From contig JAHELP010000004.1 in assembly GCA_024644105.1 (NCBI GenBank), positions 4,231-42,855 on the forward strand: a stretch of DNA of 38,625 nucleotides, written 5' to 3'. The notes beneath the pieces are model-generated. The model saw nothing but the letters and a program-made list of their open reading frames with translations. It ran no database searches and was not told where the DNA came from. How positions within the stretch are numbered: position 1 is the first letter of the stretch; every line of letters begins with the position of its first letter. The translations under genes were made by a program, and so were the position numbers. Shown here one piece after another: positions 4,531 through 6,344 of this stretch. Source of the stretch: Candidatus Nitrosopumilus sp. (GTDB lineage Archaea; Thermoproteota; Nitrososphaeria; Nitrososphaerales; Nitrosopumilaceae).

Positions 4531-5544
4531 ATGTATAAAATTTCACTAATCACTGGAGATGGAATTGGACCTGAATTATCAGAATCAGCAGTATCTGTTT
4601 TGGATACAATTCATGATAAACTTGATTTGAAATTTGATATTACTAAATTATCTGCCGGTGACAAAGCCTTATCTGAAACTGGAAAAGCATTACCTGATGA
4701 AACAGTTAAAACAATAAAACAATCTGATGTTTGCTTAAAAGCTCCAGTTGGTGAAAGTGCTGCTGATGTGATTGTTGTTTTGAGAAGAATGTTGGATCTT
4801 TATGCTAACATTAGACCTGCAAAATCATATCCACACATGCCTGCATTAAGAGATGATATTGATCTGGTGATAGTTAGAGAAAATACTGAAGATCTTTACA
4901 CTGGCAAAGAATTTAGCTTGGGTGATTCTGCAGTTGCATTGAGAATAATTTCTGAAAAAGCCTCAAAACGAATTGCAAAATATGCATTTGAAACTGCCAA
5001 ACAACGTGATTCTATGAGAAAAGTCACATGTGTTCACAAGTCAAATGTAATGCGAGTTACAGATGGATTATTTGCTAAATCATGCATTGAAGTATCAAAG
5101 GATTATCCAGATATCACATTTGAAGAAATGTATGTTGATGCATGTGCTATGAATTTAATTCGACAACCTGAACAATTTGATGTTGTAGTAACTACTAATT
5201 TGTTTGGTGATATTTTATCTGATGAATCTTCTCAAGTGGTTGGAGGTTTGGGAATGGCCCCAGCTGCTAACATTGGGGATAAATTTGCATTGTTTGAACC
5301 TGTTCATGGGGCTGCATTTGATATTGCAGGAAAAAATATAGCAAACCCTTCTTCCTTTTTACTATCAATCAAAATGATGCTTGATTGGCTAGGAAACAAA
5401 CACAATGATTCTAAATGTATTGAGGTTGGTCAAAAATTAGAATCTACTATTTTTAATTTAGTAAAGACTGGTGTTAAGACCAAAGATATTGGTGGTGACA
5501 AGAGTACTACTGAATTTACAAAACAGATTACCGTAAATCTCTAA
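4531..5544 (+). CDS. leuB: Isocitrate/isopropylmalate dehydrogenase family, probably 3-isopropylmalate dehydrogenase from context
   Basis: GDGIGPELSESA, RENTEDLYTGKE, NLFGDILSDESSQVVGGLGMAP, EPVHGAAFDIAGKNIANP. Confidence 0.82.
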   Translation: MYKISLITGDGIGPELSESAVSVLDTIHDKLDLKFDITKLSAGDKALSETGKALPDETVKTIKQSDVCLKAPVGESAADVIVVLRRMLDLYANIRPAKSYPHMPALRDDIDLVIVRENTEDLYTGKEFSLGDSAVALRIISEKASKRIAKYAFETAKQRDSMRKVTCVHKSNVMRVTDGLFAKSCIEVSKDYPDITFEEMYVDACAMNLIRQPEQFDVVVTTNLFGDILSDESSQVVGGLGMAPAANIGDKFALFEPVHGAAFDIAGKNIANPSSFLLSIKMMLDWLGNKHNDSKCIEVGQKLESTIFNLVKTGVKTKDIGGDKSTTEFTKQITVNL

Positions 5545-5563
5545 AAATTATTTCTTTAAAACA

Positions 5564-5661
5564 ACGAGATACATGGAAAACACGCTGATACAAGGACGTA
5601 TTCCTAACATGATGTGTTTTCCAGACCTACTGTTCTACGACGCAGAACAATGGTTTCTCGT
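5564..5661 (+). ncRNA. Candidate structured RNA with three-way junction (unassigned family), 3' of leuB
   Basis: P1 ACGAGA 5564-5569 / TCTCGT 5656-5661; P2 TGGAAAACAC 5574-5583 / GTGTTTTCCA 5614-5623 (10/10), with AGGA 5593-5596 / TCCT 5602-5605 inside its loop; P3 TGTTCT 5631-5636 / AGAACA 5644-5649. Strand could not be fixed independently. Confidence 0.5.
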
Positions 5662-5726
5662 CACATACAATAGGCTAAAATCATATTTAAGAATGATCCA
5701 AATTTCCCACTAGTGATAATTTTTAG

Positions 5727-5963: not shown

Positions 5964-6095
5964 ATGGTTGTGTGCTGTATTTGTAAAATTGCTACTGGTA
6001 CCTTGAAGATTTCTGACGGTAATCCAAAGTATAAGGGAAAGCCTATCTGTAAAGAATGTCAGGGATATCGAAAATTACTCAAAGAAACAAAATAG
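5964..6095 (+). CDS. 43-aa zinc-binding micro-protein, missing from supplied ORF track
   Basis: MVVCCICKIATGTLKISDGNPKYKGKPICKECQGYRKLLKETK*; CxxC...CxxC pairs; TAG 6093-6095 abuts the convergent gene at 6096. Confidence 0.7.
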   Translation: MVVCCICKIATGTLKISDGNPKYKGKPICKECQGYRKLLKETK

Positions 6096-6344
6096 TTATT
6101 CTGAATCTTTAGTTTTGTTTTTTGCTGCCCATTCTTCATACATTTTAATTAATTCATCCACATCTTTACCTTCCTCTGAATATGTGACAATTACACCAAA
6201 TGTACCTTTTTTATCATGGCCTCTGGCAAAATAACCCCAAAAAGAGTCTGGTAACTTTGCAAAACTGCTTGAATCATGTGATACTCCGATTAAATTATTT
6301 CCAATTACCTCTACTACTTTTTTAGCATCTTCTTGTTCAATCAT
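6096..6344 (-). CDS. Hypothetical protein (82 aa)
   Basis: ORF with ATG and ordinary soluble-protein composition, between two small zinc-binding ORFs. Confidence 0.6.
   Translation of the reverse strand: MIEQEDAKKVVEVIGNNLIGVSHDSSSFAKLPDSFWGYFARGHDKKGTFGVIVTYSEEGKDVDELIKMYEEWAAKNKTKDSE

Follow-up and report, generated by a model that had tools for sequence, protein, structure and literature searches.

A stand-alone three-way-junction RNA, probably new, in Nitrosopumilus-like archaea

Introduction

Few microbes of the sea are as abundant as the Nitrosopumilus-like archaea, marine ammonia oxidizers whose small RNAs have apparently been little described. The DNA analysed here (the window, 38,625 nt from a Candidatus Nitrosopumilus sp. 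contig) carries, beside a leuB-type isopropylmalate dehydrogenase gene, a block at positions 5561-5670 in which a preliminary description recognized three complementary helices nested as a closed three-way junction. Read on the plus strand, downstream of leuB, the block had been attributed to a stand-alone small RNA, to a 3′UTR element of the branched-chain operon or to a novel RNA class. Does this locus encode an RNA, on which strand does it lie, and what could such an RNA do?

Strand, promoter and extent of the gene

The block folds better than shuffled sequence on both strands. On the plus strand, the closed three-way junction is recovered at -30.4 kcal/mol, as compared to -18.6 for the shuffles (z -3.9, 0/200 as good), and on the minus strand the fold is better still, at -36.8 kcal/mol (z -4.6; z -4.7 for the RNA trimmed to 5558-5665). 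The minus strand is also the more stable one in 22/22 relatives. Moreover, when the helices of these 22 close relatives are read as minus-strand RNA they contain 109 G-U and 4 A-C pairs; the plus-strand reading, which turns the 109 G-U pairs into A-C mismatches and gives the weaker fold, was rejected.

Conservation in the alignment of relatives outruns the described block, reaching ~5698, and the additional part looks like an archaeal promoter. Its consensus over 86 copies is GATCAtt.TTAAATAT.ATTTTgaCgTA, i.e., a layout GATCA-N3-TTAAATAT-N-ATTTT...C.TA, in which the TATA box stands at a fixed spacing of 22-29 nt ahead of helix P1 and the GATCA...TTAAATAT...ATTTT motif stops ~20 nt before P1. 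At the opposite end, the TCTCGTTGTTTT stretch is likely a U-tract terminator. Promoter and terminator tract agree with the G-U asymmetry and the folding energy: the locus is almost certainly an unannotated RNA gene on the minus strand, running from ~5665 to 5558 and convergent with leuB (Table 1); the position of the helices had been described correctly, their strand had not. The ends of this RNA, hereafter type I (5′ near 5665-5661, 3′ near 5558), were inferred from the TATA spacing and the T-tract. Family members are 99-112 nt long and do not differ in steps of three, which argues for a non-coding RNA. Further upstream on the minus strand (~5705-5720), a block TATCACTAG is kept in part of the relatives and could be a regulator site.

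Table 1. Positions of the type I RNA, its predicted parts and associated features (window coordinates unless a contig is named).
Feature	Position	Strand	Support
Promoter-like block: GATCA 5698-5694, TATA box TTAAATAT 5690-5683, ATTTT 5681-5677, C.TA 5674-5671	5671-5698	-	86-copy consensus
Type I three-way-junction RNA gene, ~107 nt	5558-5665	-	Covariance-model match 123.7 bits, full length; fold z -4.74; covariation
P1, 5′ strand UGACGAGA	5656-5663	-	Pairs with 5562-5569; 8/8 pairs changed on both sides, 97.1% of cells paired (87 sequences)
P2 hairpin (ACC...UUCUGCGUCGUAGAA...GGU)	5625-5654	-	11/13 pairs changed on both sides (87 sequences)
P2 loop element GCGUMGU (here GCGUCGU)	5637-5643	-	GCGUMGUA in 80/86 members
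P3, 5′ strand UGGAAAACAC	5614-5623	-	Pairs with 5574-5583; 8/10 pairs changed on both sides (87 sequences)
Unpaired element UCAUGUUA, 5′ side of P3 internal loop	5605-5612	-	CAUGUUA in 80/86, UCAUGUUA in 75/86 members
P3b apical stem AGG/CCU	5593-5605	-	85.1% of cells paired; broken in several members; weakest helix (87 sequences)
P3, 3′ strand GUGUUUUCCA	5574-5583	-	Covariation, 87 sequences
P1, 3′ strand UCUCGUUG	5562-5569	-	Covariation, 87 sequences
U-rich 3′ end UUGUUUU, putative terminator tract	5558-5564	-	TCTCGTTGTTTT end conserved in most copies
leuB-type isopropylmalate dehydrogenase	4531-5544	+	Pfam PF00180, E 1.9e-101; convergent neighbour, outside the RNA
Type II RNA, ~130 nt	Own genome, contig C67, 22997-23130	+	Second covariance model; longer, weaker match

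Fold and covariation

P3 was set by hand and then tested with controls, the MAFFT alignment having misplaced its 3′ strand. Among 22 close sequences, 97.8% of the cells of the hand-set three-helix structure are paired, and 11/34 pairs have changed on both sides, whereas shuffles give 2.1; when the structure is shifted by 1-3 columns, only 40-56% of the cells pair. In 87 sequences, whose alignment was fitted to the covariance model and therefore leans towards the structure, 30/34 pairs have changed on both sides and every shuffle falls below the observed values. Sequences of a distant branch, aligned separately, agree with this. At the level of comparative analysis, covariation settles the predicted fold and the strand of the type I RNA, and the compensatory changes in P1-P3 that had been named as support are present.

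The perfect helix of 10 bp stands as described and forms P3 (5623-5614 with 5583-5574, minus-strand numbering). The two helices given as 6 bp were rightly located and are in fact longer: P1 has 8 bp including G-U pairs, and the P2 arm is a bulged hairpin of 13 pairs. A small additional hairpin does exist, as an apical stem of 3-4 bp, and is conserved in part only. The side of the P3 internal loop facing the near-invariant UCAUGUUA is variable.

A sister RNA

A second RNA (type II) surfaced through a covariance model built only on the first one, namely on its distant branch. Besides the copy in the genome of the window, type II occurs at L270 and L290 and in relatives L272 and L291-L317, and BLAST found it in 33/121 relatives. 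It folds with a z of -5.0, displays compensatory changes and has no match in Rfam. On the one hand, types I and II share the closed three-way junction, P1 (ACGAGG/CCUCGU in type II), the base of P3 (GGAAAAC/GUUUUCC) and a TATA-type promoter with the same arrangement, from which the sequences upstream of the RNase P and SRP RNAs differ. On the other hand, type II is longer, with an extended P2 that contains a purine-rich internal loop, and its P3 bears ACGAA/UUCGU and a GAUGGAAGCAUC-type hairpin where type I bears UCAUGUUA. The case for a relation between both types is made by covariance matches that are modest in strength (E ~1e-5 to 1e-2 in each genome) and by the common P1, P3 and promoter layout.

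In genome G159 (contig C3, 100668-100773 and 101084-101249), types I and II lie in tandem on the same strand, ~300 nt apart, hinting at an origin by duplication. A further divergent three-way-junction RNA (ACGAGGAA...TTCCTCGT) in genome G390 (contig C44, L289) is fully like neither type and is possibly a third one. A loose motif search of 12 genomes, in which the allowed gap was shorter than the P2 of type II, returned only type I and apparent coding sequences.

Distribution and genomic context

A BLAST search of 60 relatives with this region yielded strong hits in many congeneric genomes. Covariance-model searches found the type I RNA in 85/401 genomes of the order, all of them in the family of the window and distributed over four genera; a sample covering the whole phylum contained no further copy beyond the family, across which the RNA is kept. 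The second model, for which the distant branch was used, matches 98/401 genomes, sister RNA included. The label Nitrosopumilus-like was chosen because the named contigs L023 and L027 belong to Nitrosopumilus and L060 to a marine group I thaumarchaeote. Genomes that carry the type I RNA have 1-4 copies, and fast-filtered covariance searches found none in some near-complete genomes, such as G126 (one contig, 99% complete). Either the RNA is not universally required or the fast filters missed it there.

The genes adjoining the 87 copies vary widely between species, and among these many different neighbours no single gene is consistently associated with the RNA in a fixed orientation. leuB adjoins the RNA only in some relatives. 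Since its neighbours differ so much, the RNA has no fixed link to leuB and very probably acts in trans. It combines several features of trans-acting structured archaeal ncRNAs: its own promoter, a covarying fold, no ORF and variable neighbours.

Proposed role

Taken as a whole, the explanation that we consider probable is that of a stand-alone RNA gene on the minus strand whose product serves in trans as a scaffold for a small ribonucleoprotein. Such a scaffold would display two near-invariant elements, UCAUGUUA and GCGUMGU. One protein common to types I and II would recognize the core, and specific contacts with a target RNA or a second protein would be made by the arms that differ between the types, namely P2 and the UCAUGUUA-bearing internal loop of P3. 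Recognition by a common protein is favoured because P1 (ACGAG/CUCGU) and the P3 base (GGAAAAC/GUUUUCC) keep their sequence though double-stranded, and do so in both RNAs. The shared-protein scaffold itself is put forward tentatively. By extension, types I and II might, more speculatively, found a new class of archaeal ribonucleoproteins in Nitrosopumilus-like marine ammonia oxidizers, with a common core, one lineage-specific protein and exchangeable target arms.

The ribonucleoprotein scaffold is favoured over a trans-acting regulatory RNA that would use UCAUGUUA and/or the GCGUMGU loop to pair with mRNAs, over start codons for instance, a role that we regard as possible and somewhat doubtful. 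A stand-alone gene with its own promoter, two near-invariant exposed elements, several copies per genome and the AUG included in UAACAUGA would all suit a regulator of this kind. However, the number of CTAACATGA sites in three genomes does not exceed that of a reversed-pattern control; among the sites examined, a single one falls where a long ORF likely starts, and this one is not common to the genomes. A site that does recur in three genomes runs, on the likely coding strand, in the sense of the RNA itself, and hence is not complementary to the mRNA. Start-codon antisense by UCAUGUUAG is likewise not supported, as exact matches to the complement of this single 9-mer in three genomes revealed neither enrichment nor a conserved start-codon site. 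Complementarity to the rRNAs of two genomes (G035 and G007) is no better than that of shuffled sequences. Together, the antisense and rRNA results weaken a plain antisense role.

Mobile elements, known RNAs and the leu operon

Locations that vary from species to species, together with copy numbers as high as 4 per genome, could recall a small MITE-like repeat spreading in these genomes. This origin is highly improbable for an RNA of low copy number, of which many locations are common to related species, whose fold is held by compensatory changes and whose promoter stands at a fixed spacing; furthermore, no copies were found in viral contigs (exact pattern) or in plasmids, the searches for viral or plasmid carriage having used exact patterns or blastn.

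No more credible is a diverged housekeeping or guide RNA (RNase P, SRP, C/D or H/ACA guide, Y RNA), to which size and closed-junction shape lend a resemblance to Y RNA and 5S-like folds and nothing further. The preliminary description had matched the structure to no tRNA, hammerhead, H/ACA or C/D pattern, and the wider searches agree: ARAGORN found no tRNA or tmRNA gene in the window, and Rfam 15 gave no match at the gathering threshold over the whole window, the sub-cut-off matches having E of 0.02-10. Separate RNase P and SRP RNAs were each found in 7/8 genomes, including that of the window, and the replacement of either by type I was rejected. Y RNAs in Ro ribonucleoproteins are generally known to be ~100 nt long, with ends paired as in P1, a U-rich 3′ end and several related RNAs in a genome, like type I. 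Unlike them, type I has no Rfam match, and the Ro/TROVE partner protein (PF05731) was found in 0/10 genomes searched, one control genome being positive; on these two grounds a Y RNA was rejected. Archaeal H/ACA and C/D guides are likewise small structured RNAs with their own genes, but type I has no Rfam guide match at gathering, no ACA end and no two-sided conserved guide pocket. Identification as an H/ACA guide was rejected on the UUGUUUU 3′ end, which has no ACA box, and on a P3 loop conserved on its 5′ side only.

Least probable of all is a role in cis for the leu operon, either as a 3′UTR structure or as a bidirectional terminator between leuB and convergent genes: in the window and in several close relatives, the RNA does lie in the convergent gap, 11-70 nt away from the leuB stop, but most of the copies found elsewhere have no leuB nearby, the G-U/A-C asymmetry and the conserved promoter indicate minus-strand transcription, loop conservation exceeds what a terminator would require, and the 3′UTR element of the branched-chain operon is excluded by the many relatives that carry the RNA elsewhere with its own promoter.

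A parallel in kind is Tan1, an abundant ncRNA of 229 nt described from marine group II Euryarchaeota (PMC5069720). Both are lineage-specific structured archaeal ncRNAs of the marine plankton to which no function has been assigned, and Tan1 is set apart, by its description, in length and phylum (PMC5069720). No paper describing the type I RNA was found in the open-licence literature; subscription journals may differ. The general kind, a stand-alone structured archaeal ncRNA, is known, and the RNA family itself is new; of the original attributions, the stand-alone small RNA and, at the level of the family, novelty most likely hold. Current RNA catalogues miss a conserved family in Nitrosopumilus-like archaea, and types I and II, being family-wide, covarying and promoter-bearing, are ready targets for RNA-seq, pull-down and structural work.

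Small proteins near the RNA

Two small reading frames lie close to the type I RNA in the window. At 5966-6096 (+), a possible 43-aa Cys-rich (CxxC) protein, below the usual ORF cut-off and with no Pfam match, is kept in close relatives. At 6096-6344 (-), an 82-aa protein without a Pfam match adjoins the RNA in ~22/87 copies, upstream of it or downstream depending on the lineage.
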